NCBI RefSeq assembly: GCF_007005445.1
Contig: NZ_CP041387.1
Coordinates: forward strand, 1,860,001-1,924,000
DNA: 64,000 bases
Source: Rhodopseudomonas palustris
Lineage (GTDB): Bacteria; Pseudomonadota; Alphaproteobacteria; Rhizobiales; Xanthobacteraceae
Reading direction: 5' to 3'
This document shows, one piece after another, positions 30,283-36,092 of the stretch (within the stretch, counting starts at the first letter, position 1; every line of letters begins with the position of its first letter). The notes under the pieces are model-generated. The model was not told where the DNA came from. It worked only from the letters and a program-made list of their open reading frames with translations, and did no database searches. The position numbers and the translations under genes are program-made.

Positions 30283-31412
30283 CCGTATCCAATCACTTCG
30301 AACTGCTCGGGACCGACGGCGCCGCGCGCACCGGCCGACTCACCACCCCGCATGGCGTCGTTCGCACCCCGGCCTTCATGCCGGTCGGCACCGCAGGCGC
30401 GATGAAGGGGCTGCATTGGCGCGAGGTGCGCGACGCCGGCGCCGATATCGTGCTCGGAAACACCTATCACCTGATGCTGCGGCCCGGCGCCGAGCGGATC
30501 GCTGCGCTCGGCGGCCTGCAGCGTTTCACCACCTGGAACGGCCCGATGCTGACCGACTCCGGCGGCTTCCAGGTGATGTCGCTGGCGCAGCTCCGCAAGG
30601 TCAACGAGCAGGCGGTGACGTTCCGCTCGCACATCGACGGCGCCGCGATCGAGCTGTCGCCGGAGCGCGCCATCGAGGTGCAGCGTCTGCTCGGCTCCGA
30701 TATCGCGATGCAGCTCGACGAATGCGTCCGGCTGCCGGCCGATCGCGCCGATATCGAGCGGGCGATGCAATTGTCGCTGCGCTGGGCGGAGCGCTGCAAG
30801 CGCGCGTTTGAAACAGCGCCGGACGGCTACATGCTGTTCGGCATCGTGCAGGGCGGCGACGTGCCCGAGCTGCGCCATGCTTCGGCGCGCGGGCTGATCG
30901 ACATCGGCTTCCACGGCTATGCGATCGGCGGCCTCGCGGTCGGCGAGCCGCAGGACGTAATGCTGGCGATGATCGAGGAGGCGGCGCCGATCCTGCCCGC
31001 GGAGCGGCCGCGCTATCTGATGGGCGTCGGCACGCCGGAGGACATGCTGGAAGCGGTGGCACGCGGTATCGACATGTTCGACTGCGTGATGCCGACCCGT
31101 AACGGCCGCCATGGCCTCGCTTTCACTCAATACGGCCCGATCAACCTGCGCAACGCCAAGCACGCCGACGATCCGCGGCCGCTCGACGAAGAGAGCGACT
31201 GGCCGTCGACCCGCAACTACTCGCGGGCCTATCTACACCATCTGGTGAAGTCGAGCGAGACGCTCGGCGCGATGCTGCTGTCGGAGATCAATACCGCGTA
31301 CTATCAGCGGCTGATGCGCGACATCCGCGGCGCGATCGCCGCCGGCCGGTTCGAAGAGTTCAGGCTCCGCACGCGCGAGGCGTGGGATCGCGGCGATCTG
31401 CCGCCGCGCTGA
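30279..31412 (+). CDS. tgt: queuine tRNA-ribosyltransferase (lacking zinc cysteines)
   Basis: The 377-residue TIM-barrel enzyme swaps guanine 34 for preQ1 in tRNAs with GUN anticodons. Catalytic motifs are present: [13 protein letters not shown] with the conserved Asp, [22 protein letters not shown] and the nucleophile in [13 protein letters not shown]. The canonical zinc site CxCxxC before the closing helix is absent; the region reads [20 protein letters not shown], giving Ser, Trp and Thr in place of the cysteines, with the final His kept. Whether activity persists without zinc is not visible here. The ATG at 30279 overlaps the queA stop. Confidence 0.96.
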
Positions 31413-31518
31413 TCCGCCGCTTCGGCTGCCGACGCCGTTCGGCCGTGACCCGGCAATTCGCTGACGCGCCGATGCTCCGCCCGCTGGCTGTCGAGATCCG
31501 GGATTGGGATCGCTCGTG

Positions 31519-31863
31519 CTACTTCGCAATCGGTCCGGGCCCATACTGCAGAATCTGAACGTTCTGCTTCGTAATCAGACCGCCACCCATCATGCTGTCC
31601 AGTACCGGCAGAAACGCCTCGATCGTTTCCGGCGCATCGACGATCTCGATGATGATCGGCAGATCTTCCGAAAGCCGGAGGATTTTGCTGGTGTGCAGAC
31701 GGCTGGAATGCCCGAAGCCGATCGCCCCGCGCAAGACGGTGGCGCCCCCCAGATGCATTTCGCGAGCCTTCAGAACAATCGCCTCATGGAGCGGCCGATT
31801 GTCAAAGCGATCGTCTTCACCGATGAAGATCCGGAGGAGTACGGCGTCACGAGGCAGTTGCAT
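31519..31863 (-). CDS. DUF190 protein, CrcB-associated
   Basis: The 114-residue protein is a DUF190 member, a small PII-like ferredoxin-fold family that often accompanies fluoride exporters. It shows LLRIFIGEDDRFDNRPLHEA, VLKAREMHLGGATVLRGAIG, DLPIIIEIVDAPETIEAFLP and VQILQYG. It is closely similar to the C-terminal third of the neighbouring fusion (32070-32888). A regulatory rather than transport role is likely, but unproven. It is third in the minus-strand fluoride cluster, 206 bases below the fusion. Confidence 0.9.
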   Translation of the reverse strand: MQLPRDAVLLRIFIGEDDRFDNRPLHEAIVLKAREMHLGGATVLRGAIGFGHSSRLHTSKILRLSEDLPIIIEIVDAPETIEAFLPVLDSMMGGGLITKQNVQILQYGPGPIAK

Positions 31864-32069
31864 CGGTCTGTCCTTGGTTCGTTCGGGGCGTCGCGAAACT
31901 CGTCGAAGCTCTCCGCGGTCGTGTGATCATCTTTGCCATCTGATCGCTGCGACGATCACTTCGAGGCGGGATCGGCCGCCGGCGGGACGATCGATCGGGA
32001 CATTCAACCCGACCGACCGCGCAGCATAGTCCCGACTTCGTTACCGGTACGTGGTACGGCGCGGCCATT

Positions 32070-32888
32070 TCAAGTCGCTCCAGTGCCGCCGGGTTGTCCG
32101 TACTGGATGACTTCGACACGTTCCATCGTCGCCATGCCGCCGGGCATCATCTCGTCGAGCACAGGAAGGAAACGCGCGACCGCGTCTTCACTGTCGATGA
32201 TCTCGATGATCAGCGGCAGTTCGCTGCGAACGCGAAGGGCGTCGGCCCGGTGCATCTGGCTCGACTCTCCATAGCCGGTCGGCCCGCGGAAGACGGTCGC
32301 TCCGGCGAGCTGCATCTTTCGCGCGCGCAACACGATGGCCTCGTAGAGTGGCGCGTCGCCGTGCTTGTCGGACTCGTCGACGAAGATCCGGAGCAGCGTG
32401 GCCTGCCGTGGTATCTGCAAGTTCTCGGGCTCGTCTCCGGTGACGATGGAGGTTCGCACCCGATTGAGTCGGGTCGCGAACGCGTAGCCGCCCCAAACGG
32501 CGATCAGCCAGGCGACGGGCGAGAGACCGAAATTGAGCCCCGCGACGAGCAGGTCGCCGTTCCGGATCAGCGCGAAGGTTTCGAAGCTGAACATCGAAAA
32601 GGTCGTGTAGCCTCCGCAGATGCCGGCCATCACAAACTGACGCTGGCGGCTCCCCGCGAAGATCCGGCCGTCGGGCCCTGTGACCGTGGCATAGAAGCCG
32701 ATCAGAAAAGAACCGGTGACGTTGACGATCAATGTGGTCCACGGGAAGGCCGGGCCGAGCAGGGCGATCTGCGCGACACCGACCAGGTACCTCGCGACTC
32801 CGCCGAGCACGCTCCCGAGACCGACCAAGCCGTAGACGGCGAGGCCGTCCAATGCGCGGCTAGCCCATGCGGGAAGCTTACGCAGCAT
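32070..32888 (-). CDS. crcB: CrcB fluoride channel fused to DUF190
   Basis: The 272-residue protein joins two families that are usually separate. Residues about 15-140 are a Fluc/CrcB channel subunit with four helices, the conserved asparagine in FPWTTLIVNVTGSFLIGF and the Phe-box region GGYTTFSMFSFETFALIRNG. Residues about 158-272 are a DUF190 domain (TLLRIFVDESDKHGDAPLYE, LRARKMQLAGATVFRGPTG, LPLIIEIIDSEDAVARFLPV). The channel part exports fluoride passively. The attached PII-like domain could gate or sense. The ATG at 32888 lies 36 bases after the upstream crcB. Confidence 0.9.
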   Translation of the reverse strand: MLRKLPAWASRALDGLAVYGLVGLGSVLGGVARYLVGVAQIALLGPAFPWTTLIVNVTGSFLIGFYATVTGPDGRIFAGSRQRQFVMAGICGGYTTFSMFSFETFALIRNGDLLVAGLNFGLSPVAWLIAVWGGYAFATRLNRVRTSIVTGDEPENLQIPRQATLLRIFVDESDKHGDAPLYEAIVLRARKMQLAGATVFRGPTGYGESSQMHRADALRVRSELPLIIEIIDSEDAVARFLPVLDEMMPGGMATMERVEVIQYGQPGGTGAT

Positions 32889-32924
32889 GTCGGTGCCGAG
32901 GTGTTGCGGACAATGCTGCAGCTC

Positions 32925-33320
32925 TCACTGGACGATCCGAGTTGTGAGGATAAATCCCGTGGCCGCCAGGCCAGGGCAGAGGATCAGCGACATCAGGACG
33001 TTGCCTGCCGCCCGCCGGAGGTCGCCGTCGCGCGCCAGGCTCAAGGTCTGCAAGCTGAAGGAGGACACGGTGGTGTAGCAGCCGAGGAAACCGGTCACGA
33101 CGAGCAGCCAGGAGGTGTGCTCGGCGAACACGCCTTGGCCGCTGCTGGCGAGGCCGCCGAATACGCCGATTGCCAGAGCCCCACTGGTATTGACTGTCAG
33201 GGTACCCCAAGGAAAGGTCTCGCCAATGCTACGTGCGACCAGCCCCGAAATCCCGAACCGAGCAATCCCGCCGAACATGCTGCCGAAGGCGACCCAGATC
33301 GTTCCGTAGACGATATCCAT
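32925..33320 (-). CDS. crcB: CrcB/Fluc fluoride channel, divergent subunit
   Basis: The 131-residue membrane protein has four helices and the Fluc hallmarks GGIARFGISGL, FPWGTLTVNTSGALAIG and GCYTTVSSFSLQTLSLARDG. The Phe box is changed: the usual TTFS(T/M)F is TTVSSF, so one phenylalanine is a valine, and the usual acidic residue after it is glutamine. It probably pairs with the fusion subunit as an asymmetric heterodimer, as reported for some tandem crcB genes. The ATG at 33320 is used; a GTG at 33329 would add three residues. Confidence 0.88.
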   Translation of the reverse strand: MDIVYGTIWVAFGSMFGGIARFGISGLVARSIGETFPWGTLTVNTSGALAIGVFGGLASSGQGVFAEHTSWLLVVTGFLGCYTTVSSFSLQTLSLARDGDLRRAAGNVLMSLILCPGLAATGFILTTRIVQ

Positions 33321-33356
33321 GTCTTTCACTGCTCGTTACGACAGTTCGTGTCGCGA

Positions 33357-33659
33357 TCACCACGATTGCCGGCTGACCCAAAGCCTGCCGTCAGCATGAT
33401 ACAGATAGAATCCTTCGAGGAGCATGTGGATGCGTGTAATTCCCAAGTCCGTCGACTGCCGGACCGCGGCAACAATCGACATCGTGGGCGATAGACCGAG
33501 AGTGCCATTCCGCTCGTGCGGTGGGACGTCGATATAGGAAGGCACCACAGCAACCGCTCCAACGAGCAAGAACGAGATGATCTGCCAGAGAACGGTGTAG
33601 CGATCGGCCGATGACTTGTGCAGCGTCAGAATTTGCAAACGTTCGTGATCTGCAGGCAT
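33357..33659 (-). CDS. hypothetical protein with one membrane helix
   Basis: The 100-residue frame has a basic N-terminus (HERLQILTLHKSSADRY), one strong hydrophobic helix (LWQIISFLLVGAVAVVPSYI, about residues 25-44) and a soluble C-terminal part (VAAVRQSTDLGITRIHMLLE and LYHADGRLWVSRQS). It begins at ATG 33659 and ends only 27 bases or so before crcB on the same strand, as a first operon gene would. Codon use is less GC-biased than its neighbours. I do not recognise the family; membrane topology and position are its only support. Confidence 0.5.
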   Translation of the reverse strand: MPADHERLQILTLHKSSADRYTVLWQIISFLLVGAVAVVPSYIDVPPHERNGTLGLSPTMSIVAAVRQSTDLGITRIHMLLEGFYLYHADGRLWVSRQSW

Positions 33660-33794
33660 GCGCCGTCACTGTCTTCAATTCCTAACAGGCCGGTCATGGA
33701 TCTCGCTACCGTAGAAAGACGTAACCCATAGCGTTGTAGCGGAGCCGCGAGCAGATTGACGACGGCATCGCAGCTTTGTATGAATTTCACCGAT

Positions 33795-33863
33795 GGGGAT
33801 GGAGTCCCCCCGACAACCGCCGTGAGGCTGATGACTCCTACCGGGCGCTTTCGCGTCGGTAGG
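33795..33863 (+). promoter_or_regulatory. fluoride riboswitch (crcB motif)
   Basis: The plus strand carries the crcB-motif aptamer. P2 is GGGG with CCCC around AUGGAGU. The loop GGAGU can pair with ACUCC in the 3' segment GAUGACUCCUAC. The invariant ACAACCGCC is present, and P3 is GCC-GUGA-GGC followed by UGAUG. Compared with the known Pseudomonas syringae aptamer (GGCAU with AUGCC) the pairing covaries, which is strong support. A downstream hairpin (CCUACCG at 33837-33843 with CGGUAGG at 33857-33863) overlaps the aptamer's 3' arm and could be the switch. It points away from the minus-strand crcB genes and towards the small frame at 33927. Confidence 0.88.
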
Positions 33864-33926
33864 ATTGTGTCGAAGACTCTCCCCGATCGTCCCGAGCCGT
33901 CAGCCGGAGACCTGGAAGGGTCCCGC

Positions 33927-34085
33927 ATGAAGTCTGTGATTGTCTTGCTGCAACCCCTCCGGGGAATGCTCGCGAGCAGAACTGTTGCGCTATCAGTGCT
34001 GTCGGCCGTCACAGCGGCCGCTGGGCCGGGGTTTGGCTTTGGCGCCGAAGCGGACGGTCATGCTGCTGCTCGCTTGGCGCTTTGA
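33927..34085 (+). CDS. possible small exported peptide under the riboswitch
   Basis: A 52-residue frame begins at ATG 33927, about 64 bases after the riboswitch hairpin, with the ribosome site GGAAGGG about 8 bases upstream. The N-terminus is basic (MKSVIVLLQPLRGML) and is followed by a hydrophobic stretch (TVALSVLSAVTAAAGPGFGF), much like a signal peptide. It ends soon after at a TGA. It may be a tiny exported protein, the start of a decayed gene, or chance. No homology can be claimed. Confidence 0.3.
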   Translation: MKSVIVLLQPLRGMLASRTVALSVLSAVTAAAGPGFGFGAEADGHAAARLAL

Positions 34086-34340
34086 CGGCACTTGCCGAAA
34101 CAGCGATCCGGACGAGGCAGAACTAGTCGGGACGTGTGACCATCGTGGAGACGTACTCAGTCGCAGGGATACGCATGTCCTTGCCGGGGGGGGTACGGCG
34201 CCCATGAACGGCGTGCGCGGAGCCGGGCGGGGTGATGACGAACGGCGAAGCAGAGCGAGGTCTGATGGTCCGCAATAGGAAGAAACGCGTGAGCCGCATG
34301 ATCGATCGGGCAAGGTCGAGAGTGCGTGATGGAGAGAAGC

Positions 34341-34715
34341 ATGGCGCGGATCGGTAACGCCCGAACCATTGCCGATATCGAGTTCGTCATCGACGCGCCG
34401 AGCCCCGGCAGCGACCAGTCGGTGTGGACGGTCGACGGAGTCGAATGCTCCCGCGAGCGCCACCGCTATAACGGAAGGAGCTATTCGTTTTCGCTCGAGA
34501 TTCTGCAACTGCGGGCCGATGCGCCCGGCGCGCCCCGCTGGCACGTCGTGATCATCAGCGAATTGTGGAAGTTCTACGAAGCCAAGGCGGAGCCACACAA
34601 GACGCAGCACCTCAAGGTGATCTCCGGAAAGGCGCCGGATATTCTCGCCTGGATGAGACATCAACGGAATGCCAAGTTGCAGCGAGTAACGTCACGTGAA
34701 TCCGTCGGTCGATGA
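34341..34715 (+). CDS. hypothetical protein, 124 aa
   Basis: The ATG at 34341 follows GGAGAGAAGC, a good ribosome site; codons at 34326 and 34329 are also possible. The soluble 124-residue protein begins MARIGNARTIADIEFVIDA, has a central beta-rich part (QSVWTVDGVECSRERHRYNG, SYSFSLEILQL, RWHVVIISELWKFYEA) and a basic C-terminus (ILAWMRHQRNAKLQRV). There is no signal peptide. I do not recognise it. It is the first sizeable plus-strand gene beyond the fluoride riboswitch, about 480 bases past it. Confidence 0.6.
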   Translation: MARIGNARTIADIEFVIDAPSPGSDQSVWTVDGVECSRERHRYNGRSYSFSLEILQLRADAPGAPRWHVVIISELWKFYEAKAEPHKTQHLKVISGKAPDILAWMRHQRNAKLQRVTSRESVGR

Positions 34716-35109
34716 CGGCGGGATGAAACATCTCAATCGCCGGGTCGTGGGCGAGGACGGATGGTGCGAGTGCGTCCATGTGCATGACGAAGGCTACGGA
34801 CACGTCGAAGACGACCGTGCTTCGAAGACGACCGATCTTTCGAAAGCCGACGGACGCTTCGATCGCGACGGACTCTCGGCTGCCCGGAAATGCAGAATCG
34901 ACTTCGCGGGGCCTGGCGATGTCGAGCTGGCGGCAAGCTGCTGATCGTTACCGGCGAGCGGAAACTGTCGCTCGTCCGGATTCGAGAGTTGCGGCGACCA
35001 TTGCTGTTTGTCGGCGTTCCGGGCCCGACTGTTTGTCTTCGTTGTCAGCTCGTGCGGCTTGTCCATGGCTGCTTTTCAGCATGGGAGGACAGCAAGAGCG
35101 ACGAAGACG
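34716..35109. other. 394-base stretch without a convincing gene
   Basis: Several short frames overlap here on both strands, none with a good ribosome site plus conserved sequence. A direct repeat TCGAAGACGACC occurs twice near 34807-34832. The DNA looks like decayed coding sequence or untranslated leader. Confidence 0.4.
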
Positions 35110-35325
35110 TTAGTTGCAGGAAAAGCGCTTCACCGAATGCTTGGTGACAAAACCATAGCCGCAGGTGTCGCAGGTCCACAGATAGCTCACCACGCTTTCG
35201 GTGAGATATGCGGAAGCCTCGGCAGCGACCATCGAGTCGGCGCAGACCGGGCAGGTGGGAAGATCGCTGCCGCGCGGCGCGGGACGAGGAACGTTGGTCG
35301 ACAGGACTTCAGCAATTGCCGGCAT
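35110..35325 (-). CDS. small zinc-ribbon protein, 71 aa
   Basis: The ATG at 35325 has an excellent ribosome site (GAGGAGGTCACG). The 71-residue protein carries two CxxC pairs, CPVC (residues about 26-29) and CDTC (about 52-55), which together can bind one zinc ion. A Tyr/Ser-rich strand (SAYLTESVVSYLWTC) lies between them, and the protein ends KHSVKRFSCN. It is probably a small zinc-ribbon of the kind used in regulation or as a metal-binding adaptor. No partner gene is evident. Its leader contains the tandem repeat at 35388-35477. Confidence 0.75.
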   Translation of the reverse strand: MPAIAEVLSTNVPRPAPRGSDLPTCPVCADSMVAAEASAYLTESVVSYLWTCDTCGYGFVTKHSVKRFSCN

Positions 35326-35387
35326 CGTGACCTCCTCATCTTCCAAGAGCATTGGACCTGATTGTTCAAAGCGGACCGGATTGTCCG

Positions 35388-35477
35388 GAGTGTCTGAGTG
35401 GATCGGAGCGTCTGAGTGGATCAGAGTGTCCGAGTGGATCAGAATTTCCAAGTGGATCAGAGCTTCCAAATGGGCCT
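35388..35477 (-). repeat. 18-bp tandem repeat, five units
   Basis: Five head-to-tail 18-bp units are present, of form GAGTGTCTGAGTGGATCG with increasing divergence to the right. They lie 63 bases upstream of the zinc-ribbon start codon, in its leader or promoter. Read through on the minus strand they would encode (L/P)IHSD(T/A) hexapeptides, but the good ribosome site is downstream, so they are probably untranslated. Confidence 0.85.
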
Positions 35478-35849
35478 GTTGGTTCGATTGAACGCAGCGG
35501 TCGGACACATGATCGACCGAAGTGATCACCACCTCAGTTGCACGAACTATACACTCGGAACTCTGACGATGTCGCAACACAAATGCGTTCGTTTTGAGAA
35601 AATCGATTCTGCACTGCACGCCGCCTCCGGCCAGATCCGGGATCAGCTCGATTGTTGGTGCGCGTGTTAGCGATTCAATTACTATTGCGATCGGTAAGCG
35701 GGCGTGATCAACCGGTCTGGCGCCCCTGTCCGAGTGAGTCTTGTGCGCCGCGAGGCGCCGCTTCCAGCGTGGACCGCTGGCGCGATGGACCATTCCGATG
35801 GGGACGCTTTCAACGCCTCAACTCTGCTCAACCTGCCGAGAAAACTGCC
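35478..35849. other. AT-richer spacer, no gene seen
   Basis: This 372-base spacer separates the divergent zinc-ribbon and BrnA-like genes and presumably holds both promoters. It has lower GC than the flanks (for example around 35540-35620). I see no conserved RNA, repeat or BrnT-like toxin in it. Confidence 0.4.
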
Positions 35850-36092
35850 ATGTCTCAGCCGCCCCGCCGTCCCCGCACGCTCAACGATGCCCGTACCGAG
35901 GCGGAGGCCGCCTTCAAGAAGGCCACCACTAAGCCGGTTGAGGTGCCGCCGAAGCGGCAGGCGCTGCCCGGCGTCAAGGAGATGGTGTCGTTGCGGATCG
36001 ACCAGGCGGTGCTGGAGCATTTCCAGGAAGGCGGTCCAGGATGGCAGGACCGCATCAACGCCGCATTGCGGAAGGCCGCGGGGCTCGACTAG
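35850..36092 (+). CDS. BrnA-like antitoxin domain protein (orphan)
   Basis: The 80-residue protein has a charged N-terminus (ARTEAEAAFKKATTKPVEVP) and a C-terminal ribbon-helix-helix-like block (VSLRIDQAVLEHFQEGGPGW, QDRINAALRKAAGL) typical of BrnA/DUF4415 antitoxins. In type II systems BrnA neutralises and represses with the BrnT toxin, normally encoded just upstream. No BrnT frame is present on either side, so this is an orphan antitoxin or a stand-alone regulator. Its last four bases overlap the convergent transporter gene. Confidence 0.75.
   Translation: MSQPPRRPRTLNDARTEAEAAFKKATTKPVEVPPKRQALPGVKEMVSLRIDQAVLEHFQEGGPGWQDRINAALRKAAGLD

Follow-up and report, generated by a model that had tools for sequence, protein, structure and literature searches.

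A single fluoride riboswitch in Rhodopseudomonas palustris very likely serves an undescribed gene family rather than the divergent crcB exporters

The stretch of Rhodopseudomonas palustris DNA analysed here (64,000 nt of contig NZ_CP041387.1; hereafter the window) carries a fluoride riboswitch aptamer on its plus strand (nt 33786–33847), with genes of fluoride export on one side and a gene of an unnamed family on the other. The export genes all lie on the minus strand and comprise crcB, encoding a Fluc fluoride channel (nt 32925–33329; PF02537, E 1.8e-22), a crcB-DUF190 fusion (nt 32070–32888; PF02537 and PF02641), and a gene for a DUF190 protein (nt 31519–31863; PF02641, E 1.1e-37). A first-pass annotation had named these three genes and placed them 470 bases from the switch; the Pfam matches agree, and the distance from nt 33795 to nt 33329 is 466 bases. 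The cluster is headed by an ORF of 100 codons (nt 33357–33659, minus strand), which brings the nearest minus-strand ORF start to 127 bases from the aptamer; this ORF has no Pfam match, and is 52% identical over 65 aa to a sequence in strain HaA2. No aptamer precedes crcB. On the plus strand, the gene of interest, orf124 (nt 34341–34715), has 124 codons and is preceded by GGAGAG, seen by eye ahead of the ATG at nt 34341; the ORF listing starts it at a GTG, nt 34326.

This aptamer belongs to RF01734 (Fluoride), of which it is a standard representative. Scanning the window against all of Rfam (cmscan) gave a full-length match (model positions 1–64 of 64; E 6.5e-13 for the window) of 56.2 bits, relative to a gathering score of 34, and the same model has no other match in the genome (5.04 Mb searched). 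The first-pass annotation, which had recognised a complete crcB-motif aptamer on this strand and proposed a covariance-model search of both strands, is borne out by this score. No second aptamer was found on either strand of nt 31000–36000, even at E 10, and a degenerate copy ahead of the divergent crcB cluster was rejected on this result. The GGAGU/ACUCC pseudoknot (ACUCC at nt 33834–33838), the ACAACCGCC core and the GUGA-capped P3 are all present as first described; the pairings had also been called covarying, a property that cannot be read from one sequence and for which the covariance-model score serves as a stand-in. The original right-hand boundary, nt 33863, falls approximately at the end of a downstream hairpin (nt 33836–33864), and not at the end of the aptamer, which stops at nt 33847. 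Folding of the 121-nt stretch nt 33780–33900 is modestly better than that of shuffled sequences (z -1.84; 11 of 200 shuffles as good), so it is the covariance model, together with conservation, that carries the case for the aptamer. The minimum-energy fold of this stretch also joins the 5' strand of the aptamer to nt 33875–33884, a pairing absent from the HaA2 fold.

Like the standard RF01734 riboswitch, the window copy has the core sequence, two stems and both strands of the pseudoknot, with a hairpin that overlaps the 3' one. It differs in having no U-run terminator, and in a target family that is not named in the cited passages of the literature. Those of the first motif description (PMC2864571) report crcB motifs overlapping terminators, and varied targets. 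The view that such aptamers normally sit in front of a transporter is only partly right: according to the cited part of a review (PMC11139923), the genes under fluoride switches include Fluc/crcB and CLC-F but also Na+/H+ antiporters, enolase, pyrophosphatase and formate hydrogen lyase, and a second source states, in the part cited, that many genes under fluoride switches are of undefined function (PMC10790756).

A candidate sigma-70-type promoter, TTGACG - 17 nt - TATGAA (nt 33756–33784, plus strand), can be read 10 nt ahead of the GGGG of the aptamer. It aligns with TTGACG-17-TATGGA in HaA2, the 29 bases as a whole being identical at 18 positions, and among 21 aptamer loci examined, 11 had a TTGAC-type box as their best -35 candidate; a stricter consensus scan listed no promoter. 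Downstream, the minimum-energy fold contains a putative switching hairpin, UCCUACCGGGCGCUUUCGCGUCGGUAGGA (nt 33836–33864, plus strand), with no U-run after it. This hairpin is predicted to occupy three of the five ACUCC pseudoknot bases, and 7 of 200 shuffles were as good. Hairpins taking 3 to 5 of the five bases were predicted at all 15 loci where an aptamer lies ahead of a family gene (a count that includes L086, where a DUF190 gene intervenes); per case, between 0 and 17 of 200 shuffles did as well. At five aptamers heading longer operons, the corresponding hairpins take 4, 1, 4, 2 and 4 of the five bases, the low values of 1 and 2 belonging to L039 and L042.

The switch is much better conserved than its surroundings. 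Aptamer and hairpin together (nt 33794–33864) are identical to HaA2 at 68 of 70 positions (97%), and beyond the aptamer core 23 of 24 hairpin bases are the same, while identity in the flanks is 49–58% (43/87 in the upstream intergenic sequence and 130/224 in the spacer behind the switch). This bears on the suggestion, made at first pass, that the switch is left over from a rearrangement. In the form considered here, the aptamer would once have stood in front of the crcB cluster, been moved away from it by inversion or separation, and now be idle. The divergent orientation of the aptamer and the lack of one on the crcB side are what such an event would leave behind. Against this stand the close conservation of switch and hairpin between species, the selection on the gene downstream (see below), and the presence of the same divergent arrangement in HaA2 and in AGun1 (L037), a Bradyrhizobiaceae MAG. 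In addition, crcB clusters of the same type occur in two genomes of the genus with no aptamer (G009, G014). This origin is accordingly very improbable, and the switch is most likely neither an orphan nor a leftover.

An exporter cluster without an aptamer is itself ordinary, because riboswitches control no more than about 15% of Fluc genes according to the cited part of the review (PMC11139923). All 16 genomes of the genus have a crcB relative of some kind, and four have a crcB/DUF190 cluster of the window type (G000, G012, G009 and G014, the last two carrying neither aptamer nor orf124 homologue). Among the four genomes of the genus that have the aptamer, three have the gene and two the exporter cluster, i.e. 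within the genus the aptamer tracks the gene better than it tracks the exporters. The divergent crcB cluster would be a separate transcription unit, beyond the reach of the switch.

A protein database search gave 46 relatives of the orf124 protein, and for none of them is a Pfam domain precomputed. Among those with a name, the nearest come from Rhodopseudomonas sp. NSM (87% identity) and R. palustris HaA2 (RPB_2950, a hypothetical protein; 83%). The latter is an ortholog with the same aptamer ahead of it and the same divergent crcB layout, and differs from the window in having a spacer shorter by about 240 nt. Of the 87 nucleotide differences between the two genes, 60 are in third codon positions (pN 0.10, pS 0.72; dN/dS about 0.05, with dS near saturation), and the pattern is missing from shifted frames. 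Since the differences are concentrated in this way, orf124 is, to judge from the substitution pattern, a real gene under purifying selection in the plus-strand frame.

Selection in that frame also weighs against another early proposal, that the switch drives an antisense transcript. In its wider form, the product would be a regulatory RNA, either antisense or free (an aptamer-capped sRNA, for instance), and the long interval between the aptamer and orf124, which holds no confirmed gene, would leave room for one. As the switch points away from crcB, its RNA would not be antisense to that gene; no terminator lies ahead of orf124, and in 19 of 23 genomes the gene family is linked to a fluoride aptamer. 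The antisense proposal is unsupported by these data, and a regulatory RNA as the main product is very improbable. The remaining early option, an unrecognised gene as the target, fits orf124 well, its family being found downstream of fluoride aptamers in those same genomes.

The linkage was assessed as a same-strand aptamer not more than 5 kb upstream of the family gene. It was seen in 19 of 23 genomes of the host family, against 0.044 expected by chance among the 23, a figure that uses per-genome aptamer counts, some of them lower bounds. The 23 consist of 22 genomes with a family match among 391 searched (18 of them linked) and of G036, also linked, which that search missed and which was found separately (E 6e-10); family counts may therefore be low, as searches of this kind can miss members. 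The exceptions are G195, where aptamers lie downstream only, and G203, G298 and G305, with no aptamer within 5 kb of the gene even at a relaxed threshold. Aptamers anywhere in the genome were found in 201 of the 391, namely in 21 of the 22 with a family match and in 180 of the 369 others (Fisher p 8e-6; G036 is counted among the others). In a set of 101 genomes of relatives, a threshold of E 1e-3 gave an aptamer in 24, of which 23 score above the cut-off, and six have a protein match. The five good matches (G000, G011, G012, G036, G051) all have a same-strand aptamer upstream. The sixth, in G070 (E 6.9e-4; 33% identity over residues 12–70, two internal stops), was dropped as likely false; counting it, the linkage would be 19 of 24, as its 3.2 kb locus is aptamer-free. 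All seven family loci from named genomes likewise have a same-strand aptamer upstream, although five of these are from organisms already represented above, L040 and L042 being additional.

Some genomes are exceptionally rich in the aptamer. In G036, a genome of the host family (contigs C139, C186, C21 and C134), there are 20, often as divergent pairs, an unusually large fluoride regulon; G297 and G273 each have at least 13 and G267 at least 9.

The distribution of the family is patchy. Within the genus, it occurs in 3 of 16 genomes, all with an aptamer (a fourth, G007, has an aptamer and no gene), and in none of the 12 that are aptamer-free; in the host family it was found in 22 of 391, and in an order-wide draw in 1 of 397, the window's own genome. 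Such patchiness, together with the three gene-bearing genomes lacking an aptamer within 5 kb and the one with downstream aptamers only, is what would be expected if the gene were an unregulated passenger of fluoride-resistance clusters, sharing residence with the switch and nothing else. Mere co-residence is nevertheless unlikely given the purifying selection on the gene and its recurrent position downstream of an aptamer on the same strand, which is kept across many arrangements. The gene may follow the aptamer, with crcB behind it (G011) or with crcB and crcB/DUF190 (L043, where a frame change splits the gene); it may lie between DUF190 and enolase genes (aptamer - DUF190 - gene - enolase, G051); or it may close a longer operon, of the form aptamer - crcB - phosphatase - gene (L041) or aptamer - CLC - EamA - phosphatase - gene (L038, L039 and L042; the CLC protein of L038 has a DUF190 domain at its end). 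The layout of the window, with crcB divergent, is that of HaA2 and L037.

A distant branch of the family was also recognised. Its members are 17–24% identical to nine sequences of the first branch, to which the branch is related with an hhalign E of 8e-10, and eight invariant residues (W, R, H, W, E, W, G, W) are common to both. A profile of the two branches has 507 database relatives, 120 of them among the matches listed. The distant-branch gene adjoins a dynamin-family GTPase gene at 7 of 12 loci (not at L076, L080, L081, L083 and L084), and all four of the GTPases tested contain PF00350. Those PF00350 GTPase genes lying directly 3' of the distant-branch gene, behind the same aptamer, are L087:5857–7746, L082:5288–7051, L078:3042–4865 and L077:3055–4920. 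In L078 and L077, genes with NADHdh and Proton_antipo_M domains (L078:5961–9067, from the Pfam run; L077:5832–8913) were found where two aptamers form a divergent pair, behind the one on the plus strand.

The family matches neither Pfam nor NCBIfam; in particular the orf124 protein has no match to PF02537 or PF00654, the domains of the CrcB/Fluc and CLC exporters, and a sequence search of the PDB with the first branch gave nothing at E 1. Two titin entries retrieved from the PDB with the two-branch profile (E 0.23–0.25) were dropped, as was DUF22, to which 5 of 40 members showed weak Pfam matches (best E 0.041). For both branches the predicted architecture is a helix, five strands and a helix (mean pLDDT 88.5 and 83.4). 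No fold is assigned to either, as neither Foldseek nor VIA-align gave a match above the usual noise; a CapZ-like beta-meander was considered, capping protein being among the entries obtained, along with Whirly, Pur-alpha and phage coat proteins. Compared with known fluoride-regulon genes, the family is similar in sharing operons with crcB, CLC, DUF190 and enolase, and in having among its neighbours, under aptamers of their own, Na+/H+ exchangers and formate-hydrogenlyase-like NADHdh/Proton_antipo_M genes. It is different in that the orf124 protein, judging by predicted structure and sequence, is neither a transporter nor a known fluoride-inhibited enzyme.

Taken together, the aptamer, the conserved hairpin, the selected gene and the recurrent linkage make orf124 very likely the target of the switch, and the best explanation, to which we assign a probability of about 85%, is that a plus-strand mRNA begins with the riboswitch and yields mainly the 124-residue protein, a previously undescribed member of the fluoride regulon. 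The sole fluoride aptamer of this genome would then serve orf124 rather than the exporters. Weighing against it are the 4 of 23 genomes with no aptamer upstream, the long leader (493 nt from aptamer to ATG, about 240 nt of it absent from HaA2), the short ORF in between, and the modest fold with its additional pairing of the aptamer's 5' strand. The leader is most likely activated by fluoride and would serve a fluoride-tolerance protein. In the absence of fluoride, the hairpin would capture part of the ACUCC strand and the leader would be off; with fluoride bound, the pseudoknot would keep ACUCC, the base of the hairpin would be lost, and orf124 would be expressed. No terminator-like site was found on the plus strand of nt 33300–34800, and folding with the aptamer held out gave no ribosome-site picture shared across species. 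As no U-run terminator follows the hairpin, control is probably exerted at translation, or through a factor such as Rho, rather than by intrinsic termination.

It is possible, if doubtful, that the switch instead governs transcriptional read-through (by Rho or another factor), mainly for the benefit of a small membrane protein encoded in the leader, with orf124 co-expressed; this would be compatible with the explanation preferred above. Between aptamer and gene, the relatives L040 and G011 have open frames of 68 and 73 codons, respectively, for a small protein, hydrophobic as judged by eye, that is probably a membrane protein; a related frame lies behind another aptamer of G036, and one within the L038 operon. 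Terminator-like hairpins with a U-run, again seen by eye, follow the switch in G011, L040, L082 and L003. The putative window counterpart (nt 33927–34085, plus strand) has 52 codons and no detectable match, the L040 protein used as a query found nothing in the window genome, and the aligned HaA2 region differs by a one-base indel. The window ORF could perhaps be what is left, after decay, of the small membrane-protein gene that relatives have at this position. In HaA2, furthermore, some 240 nt ahead of the window gene are missing, and the gene begins about 240 nt behind the aptamer (about 215 nt in L037). The frames for this small protein in fluoride-aptamer operons are L040:3744–3947 (68 codons), L089 (G011:C203:11240–11380), L090 (G036:C186:10706–10858) and L038:3265–3405.

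If orf124 is the target, what is new is the protein family, the aptamer being of a known kind. The literature searched contained nothing joining fluoride riboswitches with crcB plus DUF190 or with dynamin, and no mention of RPB_2950 or of the family, although the gene lists of the fluoride riboswitch paper published in Science in 2012 lay outside that search and may include it. Because the ligand of a riboswitch indicates the stimulus to which the gene responds, an unnamed protein gains a testable role, in fluoride stress. The occurrence of the family in fluoride operons of many layouts, outside curated families, hints at a fluoride defence besides export. An even bet, in our view, is the broader proposal that orf124 typifies a dedicated two-branch fluoride-tolerance family working with membrane or glycolytic partners, one branch often beside a dynamin-family GTPase and the other beside CrcB, CLC, DUF190, phosphatase or enolase. 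The family would then constitute a cytosolic layer of defence on top of export.

Beyond orf124, a tandem array of imperfect repeats, each about 18 nt long (GAGTGTCTGAGTGGATCG-like, recognised by eye), occupies nt 35389–35475 of the window, inside a minus-strand ORF (nt 35110–35793) whose end shows a weak, below cut-off match to the Ogr_Delta zinc finger.
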